64,000 bases of DNA from Janibacter cremeus (GTDB lineage: Bacteria > Actinomycetota > Actinomycetes > Actinomycetales > Dermatophilaceae), in assembly GCF_013409205.1 (NCBI RefSeq), contig NZ_JACCAE010000001.1:1-64000 (forward strand), in the 5' to 3' direction. Numbering within the stretch: the stretch's first letter is position 1; every line of letters begins with the position of its first letter. A program made the translations under genes and the position numbers. The notes under the pieces are model-generated. The model was not told the origin of the DNA and did no database searches. It was given only the letters and a program-made list of their open reading frames with translations. Shown here in pieces: positions 33,087-37,235 of this stretch.

Positions 33087-33530
33087 CTAGTCGTCCCTCG
33101 GCGTCGCTCTGTTCTGCTTGATCACTGCCCGCCGACGCTTGGCGGCCAGCCGGCGACGCTGGGAGCCACGGGTGCGTTTGGTCGCGCGCCGTGATGGGGG
33201 AGGAGGTGCGAGAGCCTCGCGCAGCAGGGAGGCCATCCGCTCCCGTGCGGCCGTGCGGTTGCGGCGCTGGGACCGGTGCTCCGCAGCGTCGACGGTCAGG
33301 ACCGTGCCGACAAGGCGGCTCGAGAGGTGAGCAAGGACGCGGTCGCGTTGGCGATCGGTCAGGGCGCTTGCCGTTCCCACATCCAACGAGAGCTGGACAC
33401 GCGAGTCGGTGGTGTTCACGCCCTGACCTCCGGGCCCGCTGGCCCGGCTGAACTGCTCGGACAGGTCCGAGCCGGGGATGGCGATGCCGTCGGGGACCCC
33501 CGGACCGGGAGGGACGCGGAGCTCGTTCAC
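33087..33530 (-). CDS. arfB: peptidyl-tRNA hydrolase ArfB-like ribosome rescue factor
   Basis: A 147-residue release-factor-like protein with the catalytic GGQ (34-36) in SGPGGQGVNTTDSRVQL and a basic C-terminal tail (SRRATKRTRGSQRRRLAAKRRR) that in ArfB/YaeJ enters the mRNA channel of stalled ribosomes. It has no codon-recognition domain. It should hydrolyse peptidyl-tRNA on ribosomes without a stop codon. GTG start, with AGGAG about 15 bases upstream. Confidence 0.92.
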   Translation of the reverse strand: MNELRVPPGPGVPDGIAIPGSDLSEQFSRASGPGGQGVNTTDSRVQLSLDVGTASALTDRQRDRVLAHLSSRLVGTVLTVDAAEHRSQRRNRTAARERMASLLREALAPPPPSRRATKRTRGSQRRRLAAKRRRAVIKQNRATPRDD

Positions 33531-33615: not shown

Positions 33616-34731
33616 TCATCGGGCGGCGCCGACGAGCTGGTCGGCGGACCGCAGCTCCTCGGGCAGGTTCTTCTCGAGCTCGCGCACGATCGGGATGACC
33701 TGCCTGCCGAAGTGCTCGACGTCCTCCCGGACGTGGAGGAATCCGGTGAGCATGAGGTCGATGCCGACCTTCCTGTACTCGATGATCCGCTCGGCGACCC
33801 GCTCAGGAGTGCCGATGAGGCCCGTCCGGAACCCGTCGTTGTACTGGACGAGGTCCTTGAACTCGCTGTCGGCCCACATGCCCTTCTTGTCGGCCGTCGC
33901 ACTGCCCGCCTGCTTCACGGCCTCACCGAAGTCGTTGACCTTGTCCACGTTCGCCTTGGCAATGATCTCGTCGACGACGGCCAGGGCCTCCGCCTCGGTG
34001 TCGCGCACGACGGCAAACCCGTTGAGCCCGAAGCGCACTCGTCGCCCGTGCTTGGCGGCCTGCTCGCGCACGGACTGGACCTGTTCGGCGGCGCCCTCGA
34101 TGGTCTTGCCGTTCATGAAGTACCAGTCGGACAGTCGGCCGGCCATGGCCTGGGCCGAGGTCGAGTTGCCGCCCTGGAAGATCTCCGGGTTCGTCTGCGG
34201 CTGCGGCCGGAAGGTGACGTCGCGCGTGCGATAGAAGTCCCCGCGGTAGGTGAAGTCCTCCTCGTCCCACAGCCCACGCAGGACCTCGATGAACTCCTCG
34301 GCCCGGCGGTAGCGCTCCTCGTGGTCGAGCCAGTCCAGACCGAGGTCGGTGTACTCCTTCTTGAACCAGCCGGAGACGACGTTGAGAGCCAGTCGGTTGC
34401 CGCTCGTCGCCTGGCCCGTCGCGGTCAACTTGGCGAGGAGGTGGGCCGGCCACTGGCCCGGGTGCACGGCGGCAATGACCTTCAGCCGCTCCGTGGCGGC
34501 CAGCAGGTCGAGGGAGAAGGAGACGGACTCGTGCTGGGCATCAGCGCCGTAGGACGCGAGGTAGCGCACCTGGGTCAGGGCGTAGTCGAAGCCGACCTGC
34601 TCGGCGGTGCGGGCCACATCGCGGTTGTACTCGGGGGAGTGGTCGGTGCGCTGCTCGATGTCGGAGACGACGAGACCGCCAGAGACGTTGGGCACCCAGT
34701 AGGCGAAGTTCAGGGGGTCGGAGGAGGTCAT
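33616..34731 (-). CDS. sfnG: FMNH2-dependent dimethylsulfone monooxygenase SfnG
   Basis: A 371-residue flavin monooxygenase of the luciferase-like family. The N-terminal FAYWVPNVSGGLVVS and the HESVSFSLDLLAAT, VVSGWF and DLVQYNDGFRT segments agree with SfnG of Pseudomonas as I remember it. SfnG oxidises dimethylsulfone to methanesulfinate with FMNH2 and O2 so the sulphur can be assimilated. The reductase gene lies two bases upstream and supplies FMNH2. A sulphur-linked leader peptide precedes the pair. Confidence 0.9.
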   Translation of the reverse strand: MTSSDPLNFAYWVPNVSGGLVVSDIEQRTDHSPEYNRDVARTAEQVGFDYALTQVRYLASYGADAQHESVSFSLDLLAATERLKVIAAVHPGQWPAHLLAKLTATGQATSGNRLALNVVSGWFKKEYTDLGLDWLDHEERYRRAEEFIEVLRGLWDEEDFTYRGDFYRTRDVTFRPQPQTNPEIFQGGNSTSAQAMAGRLSDWYFMNGKTIEGAAEQVQSVREQAAKHGRRVRFGLNGFAVVRDTEAEALAVVDEIIAKANVDKVNDFGEAVKQAGSATADKKGMWADSEFKDLVQYNDGFRTGLIGTPERVAERIIEYRKVGIDLMLTGFLHVREDVEHFGRQVIPIVRELEKNLPEELRSADQLVGAAR

Positions 34732-34733
34732 GG

Positions 34734-35252
34734 TCAGGCTCCGTTCGGGGTCGTGGTCAGCGTGGTCAGGGGGTAGTAGCCACCGGCGTGGTGCACGAGT
34801 GGCCGGCGGTCGGTGATGTCGGCGGTGTCGACGCGCGCGACGGCGATGAAGCTGTCGCCCACGTCGACGAGGTCGACGAGATGGGTGACGAGGCGGGCTG
34901 CGACGCCGTGGACCTGGGGGAGGCCTCCGCCGTCCAGGGACCACGTGCCGTCGTCGATGAACCGGCGGTCCCGGTCGCTGGCGAACCGACTTGCGACAGA
35001 ACGCTGCTCGTCGGACAGTAGGTGCAGTGCGGCCCTGCGGGAGCGGCTGATGGGCGCCAGCGAGCTCGACGTCTTGGAGATGTTGAAGCTCACGAGCGGT
35101 GGATCGACCGAGACGGAGACGATCGAGATGGCGGTGAAGCCGACGTGTCCGGCGGTGGAGCTGCCGGTGACGACCCAGGTGCTCGCGGCCGCGCCGCGGA
35201 AGGCATCACGCAGATCGAGTGGCTCGAGGACGTCGGCGAGGGGCGTGCTCAT
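34734..35252 (-). CDS. flavin reductase domain protein, partner of SfnG
   Basis: A 172-residue flavin reductase-like protein. Residues 25-60 (TWVVTGSSTAGHVGFTAISIVSVSVDPP region) bind FMN, and the GDSFIAVARVD and HHAGGYYPL segments are family-typical. It should use NAD(P)H to make FMNH2 for the downstream monooxygenase. GAGGAGG gives strong initiation. The 120 bases upstream separate it from the leader peptide stop and may fold into attenuator structures. Confidence 0.88.
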   Translation of the reverse strand: MSTPLADVLEPLDLRDAFRGAAASTWVVTGSSTAGHVGFTAISIVSVSVDPPLVSFNISKTSSSLAPISRSRRAALHLLSDEQRSVASRFASDRDRRFIDDGTWSLDGGGLPQVHGVAARLVTHLVDLVDVGDSFIAVARVDTADITDRRPLVHHAGGYYPLTTLTTTPNGA

Positions 35253-35372
35253 GGTTCCTCCTCAGGAGGTGTGGGTAGGCAGGCATGGTTGCGGCGTGGC
35301 CGGGCCATGTCAGGACGAAGGGGGCTGCGCAGCGCGGTCGAGGCGGCAAGAGGGCAGCGGGGGCGGCTGTTG

Positions 35373-35492
35373 TCAGACGGCGCGACAGGCGCTGACGCCG
35401 CGTCGCATCAGGTCGACGGCGCGGCGACTGAAGAGCGCCTGCCCGTGGGCAGGACGCAGGGGAGTGGTCACAGCGGACACGGAGTGGTGCAT
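35373..35492 (-). CDS. short leader peptide (sulphur/cysteine type) upstream of the SfnG operon
   Basis: A 39-residue ORF ending in SRRAVDLMRRGVSACRAV. This fits the RR-x-VDL-x-R-x-xSA-x-CR pattern of short putative leader peptides that precede sulphur-assimilation genes in many actinobacteria. GGAGG lies four bases before the ATG. The single Cys codon near the end lets cysteine supply affect ribosome position. It is on the same strand as the flavin reductase and SfnG genes and 120 bases upstream, so it probably controls them by attenuation. It is too short for most gene callers. Confidence 0.7.
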   Translation of the reverse strand: MHHSVSAVTTPLRPAHGQALFSRRAVDLMRRGVSACRAV

Positions 35493-36129
35493 CGATCCTC
35501 CATCGATCCTGGCGTGAGCACCTGCCCCCGGAGGGTGGTTGCTGCGGCGTCGTCGAGCCAGATCTCTCGGCCGCTCTGGATGGGTGCGTCCAGTAGAAGC
35601 CCACAACGGCTCGCTGGTCAACTCGTGTCTCGTCAGGTGGGCCGGGGACCCACCGCCGGACAGTGATCGCGTCATGCTCCGCAGGATTCTCGACGGCCCC
35701 GCGAAACCGTTGCGGCGCAACGATGATGGCTGGACACCGACAACCCATAGCGAGGGAGTGGCATGGACCGAGGCATGACGAATCACGACGTCGACGGGAC
35801 CAGCCACATCGAGCTCACCGGACGGAGCAGCGGTGCGCCCACCGCACGAGAGCTGCCGGTGCCCGAAGGTGATCTCCGTTGACGGACAGACCGCTCGTGC
35901 GCAGCCTGTCGGCACGTTCTGCGGAGGCGACGACGAAGGTCTTCAGACCACCTTCGATGAAGTGCGCCGCGTACATGGCTACTTGGCCAGGCGACGAACA
36001 GGGGGGCCGGGACAGGATCAACTCACATCAATAATGACATAATGTGGATTATCGGCGTTACGTCGACGTGGGCTCGGATTCCGTTACTGCCTCAGCACGA
36101 CGACAGGACGCTGCGCCTTGTCCTGGCCC
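35493..36129. other. accessory intergenic region without an intact recognised gene
   Basis: No complete conserved gene is evident. On the minus strand part of it should be the promoter region of the leader peptide; a TTGACC hexamer (minus strand, near 35617-35622) is a weak -35 candidate. A 39-codon plus-strand ORF at 35763-35882 has a GAGGGAG site but no recognised family. A likely gene remnant lies at 35815-36021. An AT-rich patch near 36028-36052 contrasts with the surroundings. The region looks like decayed accessory DNA. Confidence 0.5.
35815..36021 (-). pseudogene. possible N-terminal remnant of a ketopantoate reductase-like gene
   Basis: The translated stretch VAMYAAHFIEGGLKTFVVAS followed by ERADRLRTSGLSVNG resembles the start of the Rossmann domain of ApbA/PanE-type reductases, where a glycine-rich loop is followed by a strand and an ERAxxLRxxGLxV segment. 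The usual GAGAVG loop is missing, there is no good start or ribosome site, and a stop follows about 20 codons after the match, so no functional protein is expected. The assignment is tentative. Confidence 0.3.
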
Positions 36130-36366
36130 TCAGAATCCGTCAGGCGTGAAATCGACCTGCGTCGGCGGAGCCAGCGCCTCCTTCGACACGATCCGCCGAG
36201 CCGATGCGTACAGGCCCATCACGGAGTCATCGTCCGGGGCTTCACCGCGAGTCGCTGCCGTCAGGATCTCCGCGGCCTCGGCCTCCATCGTGCGGCCGTG
36301 GCTGTTCGCGAGTTCGGTGAGCTTGCTCTCGACGCCGTTGTCGAGGTTCTTGATCGTGAATGTCAT
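36130..36366 (-). CDS. orphan FitA-like ribbon-helix-helix antitoxin
   Basis: A 78-residue protein with an Arc-type ribbon-helix-helix N-terminus (TFTIKNLDNGVESKLTELA) and the HGRTMEAEAAEILTAA segment typical of FitA/VapB antitoxins, then a toxin-binding tail. No PIN-domain toxin follows in the roughly 130 bases downstream that I translated, so the toxin has been lost or lies elsewhere. It is only loosely similar to the complete FitA at 36945, so it is not a recent duplicate. A GTG 12 bases upstream is an alternative start. Confidence 0.8.
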   Translation of the reverse strand: MTFTIKNLDNGVESKLTELANSHGRTMEAEAAEILTAATRGEAPDDDSVMGLYASARRIVSKEALAPPTQVDFTPDGF

Positions 36367-36531
36367 GTAGATCACCACCTGACGACCAACCTACCTGTAC
36401 CGGATGCGCCTGTGCCCCCTTCTCGGCGCTGCCACGCCCGGACCCCGAAGACGAGGCCCTCCGACACCATCATCGATGGAATCAATCCCCTCGCTCCTTG
36501 CTGACGATGGGTGCCATGGATGTTGCTGTCG
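36367..36531. other. 165-base gap between orphan antitoxin and FitB
   Basis: It should contain the promoter of the orphan antitoxin gene. I see no open frame with a ribosome site and no strong hairpin. Confidence 0.4.
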
Positions 36532-36948
36532 TCATCGCCATGGATCGACGAGCTCGAGACCCAGACCCCCGAAATCGCGGATGTTGCGTGTAGCCAGTCC
36601 GACGTCATGTGCAAGGCAGGTGGCCGCGATCAGCGCGTCCATGGTCGCGATGGGCCGTCCCGCCCGACTGCGAGCGCCCATCACGCGCCCGAACTCGACG
36701 GCCGCACGCGCGTCGAAGTGGAGCATGCGCTCATCGCCCACCCTGCGGAAGAAGGCGTCAAGTGCGAGCTCAAGCCCGAAACGGCGCGATCCCCCGGGGA
36801 GGCGTTCGACCCCATGGAAGAGCTCTGCTGCCGCAACGGTGGGCACGGTGATGTCCCCATCGTCAACGAGGGACCCCCAACGAAGCACCTGGCTGTCCGG
36901 GTGAACCTTCATCAGCTCGGACACGACGTTGGTGTCGACTGCGATCAT
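36532..36948 (-). CDS. PIN-domain ribonuclease toxin, FitB/VapC family
   Basis: A 138-residue PIN nuclease. The acidic metal-binding residues are D5 (AVDTN), E42 (AAELFHG), D104 (TMDALIAA) and D125, with the TRNIRDF motif near the end. VapC/FitB toxins cut tRNA or rRNA at defined sites when free of antitoxin. It overlaps the upstream antitoxin by four bases (ATGA), the usual order antitoxin first. All key residues are present, so it should be active. Confidence 0.92.
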   Translation of the reverse strand: MIAVDTNVVSELMKVHPDSQVLRWGSLVDDGDITVPTVAAAELFHGVERLPGGSRRFGLELALDAFFRRVGDERMLHFDARAAVEFGRVMGARSRAGRPIATMDALIAATCLAHDVGLATRNIRDFGGLGLELVDPWR

Positions 36949-37205
36949 CCGAACTCGTGCCCCGAGAAGTCGACCCTCAGCGCCTCAACTTCACGATGTG
37001 GCAATTCCAGATCAACCTCAACATCGACGCCGCGTCTGGCCCAGTAGAGGTCCATGAGCGCATTCGGGGAGCGCTCCCCCCGGCCGGCGGCTGCCGCGAG
37101 GATGGTGCGCACCTCAGCCTCCATCGACCGCCCATGACGGGCAGCCAGGAGCCTCAACTCGTCGCGCACGGAGTCGTCGAGATTTCGAACCGTAATTGAC
37201 GCCAC
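36945..37205 (-). CDS. FitA-like ribbon-helix-helix antitoxin
   Basis: A protein of about 86 residues with a ribbon-helix-helix N-terminus (SITVRNLDDSVRDELRLLAA), the HGRSMEAEVRTILAAA segment and a C-terminal tail that should block the toxin active site. It binds DNA with FitB to repress its own operon. The GTG at 37205 is preferred because GGGAG lies eight bases upstream; a GTG three codons earlier overlaps that site. Confidence 0.9.
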   Translation of the reverse strand: MASITVRNLDDSVRDELRLLAARHGRSMEAEVRTILAAAAGRGERSPNALMDLYWARRGVDVEVDLELPHREVEALRVDFSGHEFG

Positions 37206-37235
37206 TGCAATCACTCCCTGACAGCAATGCTAGCA
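37206..37235 (-). promoter_or_regulatory. candidate FitAB operator
   Basis: TGCAATCA (37206-37213) and TGCTAGCA (37228-37235) are separated by 14 bases, directly upstream of the antitoxin start. The gonococcal FitAB operator, as I recall it, has half-sites TGCTATCA and TGATAGCA about 12 bases apart; each half-site here differs by one base. The second half-site is itself a perfect 8-bp palindrome. Confidence 0.4.

Follow-up and report, generated by a model that had tools for sequence, protein, structure and literature searches.

The sfnG locus of Janibacter cremeus

The window, that is the whole stretch of 64,000 nucleotides analyzed here (Janibacter cremeus contig NZ_JACCAE010000001.1, positions 1 to 64,000), carries on its minus strand a gene for dimethylsulfone monooxygenase, sfnG, which is preceded by a flavin reductase gene and, further upstream, by a short open reading frame with the translation MHHSVSAVTTPLRPAHGQALFSRRAVDLMRRGVSACRAV followed by a stop codon. 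In the direction of transcription, the locus comprises the following features:

35592..35621, minus strand: candidate promoter picked by eye, TTGACC (35616-35621), 18 nt, TCTACT (35592-35597)
35497..35586, minus strand: SAM-I riboswitch aptamer (RF00162, 59.5 bits, gathering threshold 44.4)
35497..35501, minus strand: GGAGG Shine-Dalgarno sequence of the leader (sequence and aptamer alignment)
35373..35492, minus strand: cysteine leader ORF of 39 codons, RR-x-V-D-x8-C type (translation; held-out profile, E=3.4e-8)
35385..35387, minus strand: UGU codon of Cys36, nine residues past Asp27 (UGU at this place in 75/75 gated leaders counted)
35253..35372, minus strand: spacer of 120 nt, 49% C and 23% G, with no terminator-like site (composition and terminator scan)
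34734..35252, minus strand: flavin reductase (PF01613, 90.1 bits)
33616..34731, minus strand: sfnG, dimethylsulfone monooxygenase (TIGR04021, 578.5 bits, above the cut-off of 382.95)

The initial annotation had described a 39-codon minus-strand ORF with GGAGG four bases before its ATG, lying 120 bases (35253-35372) ahead of the reductase-sfnG pair, and coordinates, translation and profile match all agree with this description. TTGAC elements resembling the candidate promoter occur at the same distance in many relatives; a promoter scan of the window gave no match at 35592-35621. The Shine-Dalgarno sequence of the reductase lies within a CCTCC-TGA-GGAGG hairpin (35257-35269), which is common to the same-genus loci L019 and L020. 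Upstream of the operon (36130-37214) a PIN-domain gene is flanked by two genes for FitA-like ribbon-helix-helix antitoxins, and downstream of sfnG (33087-33530) a release-factor-like protein with an RF-1 domain is encoded.

A SAM-I riboswitch overlaps the Shine-Dalgarno sequence of the leader

The RF00162 match is the single one in the 3.31-Mb genome and stops 4 nt short of the leader ATG. In the aptamer alignment P1 (CCATC/GATGG) is formed by 35579-35583 paired with 35500-35504. Its 3' strand extends into the leader GGAGG, the first two G of which (35500-35501) are P1 pairs. Due to this overlap the leader would become a gated second input. The earlier proposal that the position of the ribosome on the leader reports the supply of cysteine or sulfur had overlooked the riboswitch; a readout by ribosome position does fit the selection on the cysteine codon described below.

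Judging by the riboswitch class, SAM would be expected to close P1 at this aptamer as well. Several observations count against the model developed here: the P1 of the window is short with its five standard pairs, the ligand-free fold of the window segment does not favor P1 (-37.5 kcal/mol without P1 versus -33.3 kcal/mol with it), and in one relative (L010) P1 reads GATGGCCG and has no GGAGG within it, the reductase start following 15 nt further on.

The stretch 35491-35507 of the window, ATCGAT-GGAGG-ATCGAT, may form a hairpin with the leader Shine-Dalgarno sequence in its loop that would rival P1 (-6.6 kcal/mol for 21 bases). As a common feature this palindromic hairpin was rejected because it is not general. 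A plasmid search yielded three partial matches, one in Rhodococcus (18% of the query) and two in Deinococcus (9%), all matching over the aptamer and without annotated features.

The leader peptide belongs to a known family

A profile of 35 other leaders, some from family relatives and with the row of the window excluded, was run against the 1289 stop-to-stop segments of the window that have at least 15 residues. It retrieved the window frame at E=3.4e-8, the runner-up having E=0.13. No second leader of like strength was found in the genome of the window, where one match lay at E<=0.05 and the next at E=0.068. When the leaders of 34 relatives were compared with NCBIfam at a permissive E<=10, 27 matched NF042934 ("putative leader peptide", best 2.5e-11), 20 matched NF042936 (Ms4527A) and 19 matched NF042933 (Ms5788A). 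The matches to NF042934 bear out the initial assignment to a conserved actinobacterial cysteine-type leader; the family as such is already known from NCBIfam.

The leader of the window itself stays below all NCBIfam cut-offs. For NF042934 (cis_reg_atten) a 21-residue piece of it scored 13.7 versus 27 bits and no match was listed for the whole 39 residues; for NF042933 (leader_Ms5788A) the scores were 10.2 and 11.6 versus 45 bits. It has all features of the actinobacterial cysteine leader type, i.e. RR-x-V/I-D, a cysteine nine residues on and near the stop codon, and sulfur genes after it.

Occurrence of riboswitch and leader

SfnG above the cut-off is encoded in 27 of the 186 genomes of the window's family, and RF00162 is found upstream of it in 22 of these 27, the window included, and is absent there in L013, L014, L017, L018 and L022. 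As expected initially, the peptide is conserved in relatives: a motif leader follows the riboswitch at 15 of the 22 loci, the reductase start follows at four (L010, L011, L024, L025) and a different short ORF at three (L015, L026, L027). The latter ORFs encode 17-18 residues with early cysteine codons (MFQCF.., MSCCF.., MFCRN..) and are located 5-8 nt past the aptamer, before the sfnG operon. A further case of a gene start directly after the riboswitch is L028, where SfnG is below the cut-off. In L028 and L029 the SfnG matches are disrupted by a frame change or stop codons and the riboswitch is retained in both genomes.

Throughout the family RF00162 occurs at 67 places in 50 of the 186 genomes, one place being under the cut-off. 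Sorted by P1 sequence, these places comprise a leaderless class (24 members), a second class with a leader in 5/5 and the class of the window with a leader in 22/38, such that the leader is present at 27 of 67. First genes other than the reductase are OsmC-like (L037, L070 and L071 were scanned), isochorismatase-like (L063) or belong to the PLP-dependent enzymes of Cys/Met metabolism (L075).

A scan of a species-genome collection with a string covering P4, P1 and the Shine-Dalgarno sequence gave at least 119 stretches in named genomes. Among the matches listed, the first 80 named loci have 83 places, 72 of which reached at least 70 bits with the aptamer model, the others scoring 16.4 at best, and a motif leader is present at 34 of these 72. 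The 11 places without aptamer (L110, L121, L127, L137, L142, L145, L158, L167, L172, L177, L185) were left out; near them no motif leader was found in any frame within 200 nt (0/11, among the matches listed). The other 39 loci (L188-L226) were held out. Among the matches listed they have an aptamer at 37 of 39 places, L194 and L216 having none and being left out and L196 being truncated at the edge of its locus (54.4 bits), and a leader at 14 of the 37. Overall, a motif leader starts 2-11 nt past P1 in 48 of 109 aptamer places of named genomes, among the matches listed, whose 122 places are a sample.

Leader hosts among the matches listed include Lentzea, Amycolatopsis, Actinokineospora, Saccharothrix, Prauserella, Pseudonocardia and Rhodococcus as well as Nocardia, Kineococcus, Quadrisphaera, Blastococcus and Plantactinospora. 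For the leader loci of Lentzea, Amycolatopsis and Actinokineospora among the first 80 loci listed, the gene after the leader falls into one cluster in 11/11 cases, with MetN as the best family of its sole scanned member (L108). Some of the first genes assigned in named loci are wrong-frame ORFs. At other named loci an SfnG-like, rhodanese-like or transporter-like ORF stands directly at the P1 site, as judged by eye. The initial annotation placed the leader ahead of sfnG as part of an organosulfur-scavenging operon, but the arrangement is not sfnG-specific: the same riboswitch-leader pair precedes MetN-like, OsmC, sulfhydrylase-like and other genes and is therefore better described as a module.

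The leader also occurs on its own. Leader matches at E<=0.05 were obtained for 67 of 346 genomes drawn from the phylum, with up to 16 per genome; the weak ones may be chance. RF00162 was found in 169 of these 346 genomes, a number lowered by filters that lose weak matches. The genus with most leader copies, with genomes of 7-10 Mb, has one RF00162 per genome in nine genomes. The draw yielded 22 motif loci besides the window: ten are in genomes without RF00162, ten are distant from the listed RF00162 place and two (G235, G397) could be placed neither way. As most strong leaders of the phylum draw lie away from any riboswitch found, the leader appears to work without a riboswitch, and gating comes on top of a leader family that was already known.

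A fixed UGU codon

In each of the first 57 gated leaders, selected without requiring cysteine, a cysteine stands exactly nine residues past the motif aspartate, and its codon is TGT in 57/57 (29/29 after collapsing at 80% identity). TGT accounts for 255 of 1182 cysteine codons (21.6%) in the long ORFs of the same loci, and at Asp+2 cysteine is encoded by TGC in 22/24. Four leaders from outside the initial pattern or length limit (L128, L136, L143b, L184), chosen with cysteine required, have UGU at Asp+9 in 4/4, and held-out leaders from L188-L226, for which cysteine was not required, have it in 14/14. The total is 75/75 gated leaders, 74 of them distinct since L117 and L003 share one contig; L060 and L061 are repeats of L009 and L025. 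One candidate, L073, was taken to match by chance and was excluded. The aptamer there belongs to the leaderless class with 24 members, the candidate has TGC and no cysteine at Asp+9, and it would be an exception if kept.

The rule extends to leaders without a riboswitch. UGU is present in 7/8 leaders of the family set (exception L101), from which L104 was taken out because it is identical with the gated leader of L055, and in 21/22 motif loci of the phylum draw (exception L227), where the search had required cysteine. In the surroundings of the key cysteine all four CGN forms are in use for arginine and the third base of the flanking codons varies freely, spacing and reading frame being kept. 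Such confinement of selective constraint to one codon argues for decoding of the UGU codon by the ribosome. That UGU and motif are instead kept for RNA structure or binding of a protein, with translation of the leader not required, is very improbable. In single folds the mean pairing probability of the third UGU base is 0.59, an uninformative value, whereas 56 distinct segments gave no consensus structure (energy 0.0), and the freedom of the flanking third bases at constant spacing and frame speaks against it too; this explanation was rejected. Hardly credible is a riboswitch that controls the operon alone, with the ORF as a passenger: gene starts directly after the riboswitch, as in 4/22 of the family's sfnG cases and many named ones, would accord with it, but the held-out profile match (E=3.4e-8) and the UGU rule do not.

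In bacteria one tRNA reads both UGU and UGC. A fixed UGU would therefore serve slow wobble decoding or arrest and not the choice of an isoacceptor. The SAM gate could be real and the leader sense something other than Cys-tRNA, for instance free cysteine or a different thiol that binds the leader as a nascent-chain arrest peptide, with UGU serving arrest. From the sequence such a reading may be suggested by the fixed Asp-Cys distance and by the conserved upstream RR and Asp, which lie within exit-tunnel range. We nevertheless consider it unlikely, as a single key cysteine codon equally suits plain tRNA sensing.

The spacer between leader and gene

From the cysteine to the stop codon there are two codons in 30/57 leaders and three in the window. 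The subsequent spacer has a median length of 120 nt (57 leaders), C exceeds G in 56/57, and C minus G amounts to 0.143 versus 0.008 in 153 control upstream regions (p=3.9e-18), with gene starts assigned by a simple rule and with controls drawn solely from the window and L108-L187. Some spacers are probably overlong, e.g. those of L113, L075, L070 and L074. C also exceeds G in the 120 nt 3' of the stop codon of held-out leaders (14/14, in one case by a single base) and after the leader of motif loci of the phylum draw (23/23, window included). A C-rich, G-poor stretch as in tnaC-type Rho attenuation is therefore present. This composition is compatible with Rho without proving its action; the held-out leaders strengthen the codon rule and not the Rho step.

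A classical terminator attenuator was rejected, given that the scan found no terminator-like site after the window leader and that a U-tract is present in only 2/57 spacers. The alternative hairpins envisaged initially for the 120-base spacer gained no support from folding, and conserved spacer hairpins were likewise dismissed as none was found.

With the same two sensors the output could be translational, the position of the ribosome on the leader opening or closing a structure over the Shine-Dalgarno sequence of the reductase. This is a possible, though rather doubtful, alternative. The accessible part of PMC13236596 refers to the related mycobacterial (Ms) leaders as attenuators of translation, which counts against Rho as output; furthermore, the reductase Shine-Dalgarno sequence of the window is enclosed in the hairpin mentioned above (CCUCC-UGA-GGAGG in the RNA), and the leader tail pairs with the Shine-Dalgarno sequence at z below -1.5 in 8/57 cases (14%). 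That hairpin, however, was found in the window, L019 and L020 only. The mean duplex z of -0.16 is at shuffle level, for which reason pairing between leader and reductase Shine-Dalgarno sequence was rejected as a general feature, and modeled access to the Shine-Dalgarno sequence is flat (55 loci: 0.36 free, 0.37 with the ribosome on Cys, 0.35 with the ribosome at the stop). C-rich spacers, the absence of terminators and an access that is insensitive to the ribosome on Cys are better suited by ribosome dwell at the leader end combined with Rho than by a structural switch.

A two-input model

We propose, with a probability of about one half, that the 5' end of the mRNA is a two-input regulator of organosulfur scavenging in which SAM gates the leader, cysteine is read at UGU and Rho provides the output, corresponding to NOT SAM and NOT Cys. 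The riboswitch-leader architecture is well supported; we infer ribosome stalling and the Rho step. At high SAM, P1 would be closed and the leader Shine-Dalgarno sequence covered, so that the leader would stay unread and the long untranslated RNA would be terminated. At low SAM and sufficient cysteine, the leader would be read, the ribosome released and the spacer exposed to Rho, again leading to termination. Only when both SAM and cysteine are low would shortage of Cys-tRNA hold the ribosome at UGU near the leader stop, shielding the spacer and turning on reductase and sfnG. The C-rich, G-poor spacer would accordingly be a loading site for Rho whenever no ribosome occupies the leader end.

A wider formulation, for which we would claim slightly less than even odds, is that actinobacteria possess a serial two-metabolite RNA gate, in which the SAM-I riboswitch licenses reading of the leader and the leader senses cysteine via one obligatory UGU whose spacing from a nascent-chain motif assisting ribosome arrest is constant, and that the UGU rule holds across the wider cysteine leader family, gated or not.

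Relation to known systems

The arrangement consists of two known RNA parts in a new combination. For actinobacterial cysteine leader peptides, a study by Canestrari from 2020 is reportedly to be named beside that of Seliverstov. In tnaC of E. coli the ribosome is held at the leader end, Rho acts on the spacer and tryptophan is sensed. The ribosome held at the leader end and the action of Rho on the spacer are proposed here by analogy, whereas tryptophan sensing and the lack of a riboswitch set tnaC apart. The tandem-aptamer logic gates of Sherlock 2018 are said to bring two metabolite signals together on one leader RNA; they use two aptamers, as opposed to the serial order of aptamer and translated peptide in the present case.

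According to the accessible portions of the sources, the actinobacterial cysteine leaders (NF042934, NF042936 Ms4527A, NF042933 Ms5788A) resemble that of the window in RR-x-V/I-D, a cysteine near the stop, subsequent sulfur genes and the absence of a terminator. The leader of the window differs in the SAM-I riboswitch overlapping its start, its one key cysteine and its scores under the NCBIfam cut-offs. In the part available, Seliverstov (2005) reported cysteine leaders without terminators, suggested Rho, and described base stems of actinobacterial riboswitches that directly overlap initiation sites. The overlap is the same here, the covered start often being that of a leader peptide and not of a gene. 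The B12 riboswitch of M. tuberculosis ppe2 has a translated uORF whose Shine-Dalgarno sequence is covered by the riboswitch (Kipkorir, 2024; PMC11260477, as excerpted), which is similar to the overlap of P1 with GGAGG in the window. The ligand is B12 and not SAM, however, uORF and gene overlap in AUGA and reinitiation takes place in ppe2 whereas they are 120 nt apart in the window, and the excerpted description of ppe2 contains no amino-acid-sensing codon. The Rhodobacterales cysS leader uORFC-8-2 shares cysteine codons ahead of a sulfur-related gene but has an intrinsic terminator and tandem cysteines, mostly encoded by UGC (PMC8632094, accessible part). No account of the unit of SAM-I riboswitch and cysteine leader or of the UGU rule was found in the literature searched, which included the accessible parts of PMC8079986, PMC9094748, PMC11133741, PMC6429828 and PMC3766115 and left subscription papers mostly outside, so that absence is unproven; a search with leader motif strings returned nothing relevant.

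Our findings connect two known RNA regulators to a series circuit in several actinobacterial families, with sulfur scavenging and methionine uptake among the genes under control, and offer an account of why actinobacterial SAM-I aptamers often stand before a tiny ORF. They also provide a signature for annotation, consisting of a P1 ending in ...GATGGAGG, a start codon 2-11 nt later and RR-x-V/I-D-x8-C with UGU, and they make the terminator-less action of actinobacterial cysteine leaders testable, with the fixed UGU and the C-rich spacer as handles.

Other short ORFs and aptamer pairs

In L054 and L066 nine-residue ORFs containing methionine (MRMHMRTRS, MRMHMHQRS) occupy the leader position 4 nt past the aptamer. 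The ORF after them resembles an ABC ATPase, and they perhaps represent a methionine-sensing version. Another leader type is seen in L065 and L077, where short RRMC ORFs (..TRRMCSGRMCLRP.. and ..GRRMCLTPRRR) follow the SAM aptamer, which is under the Rfam cut-off in L077; the one in L065 precedes an ABC ATPase (PF00005). Divergent pairs of SAM-I aptamers about 120-260 bases apart occur in L157 (1254-1619), L168 (4047-4447), L197 (6362-6695), L204 (570-907) and L219 (3812-4245).
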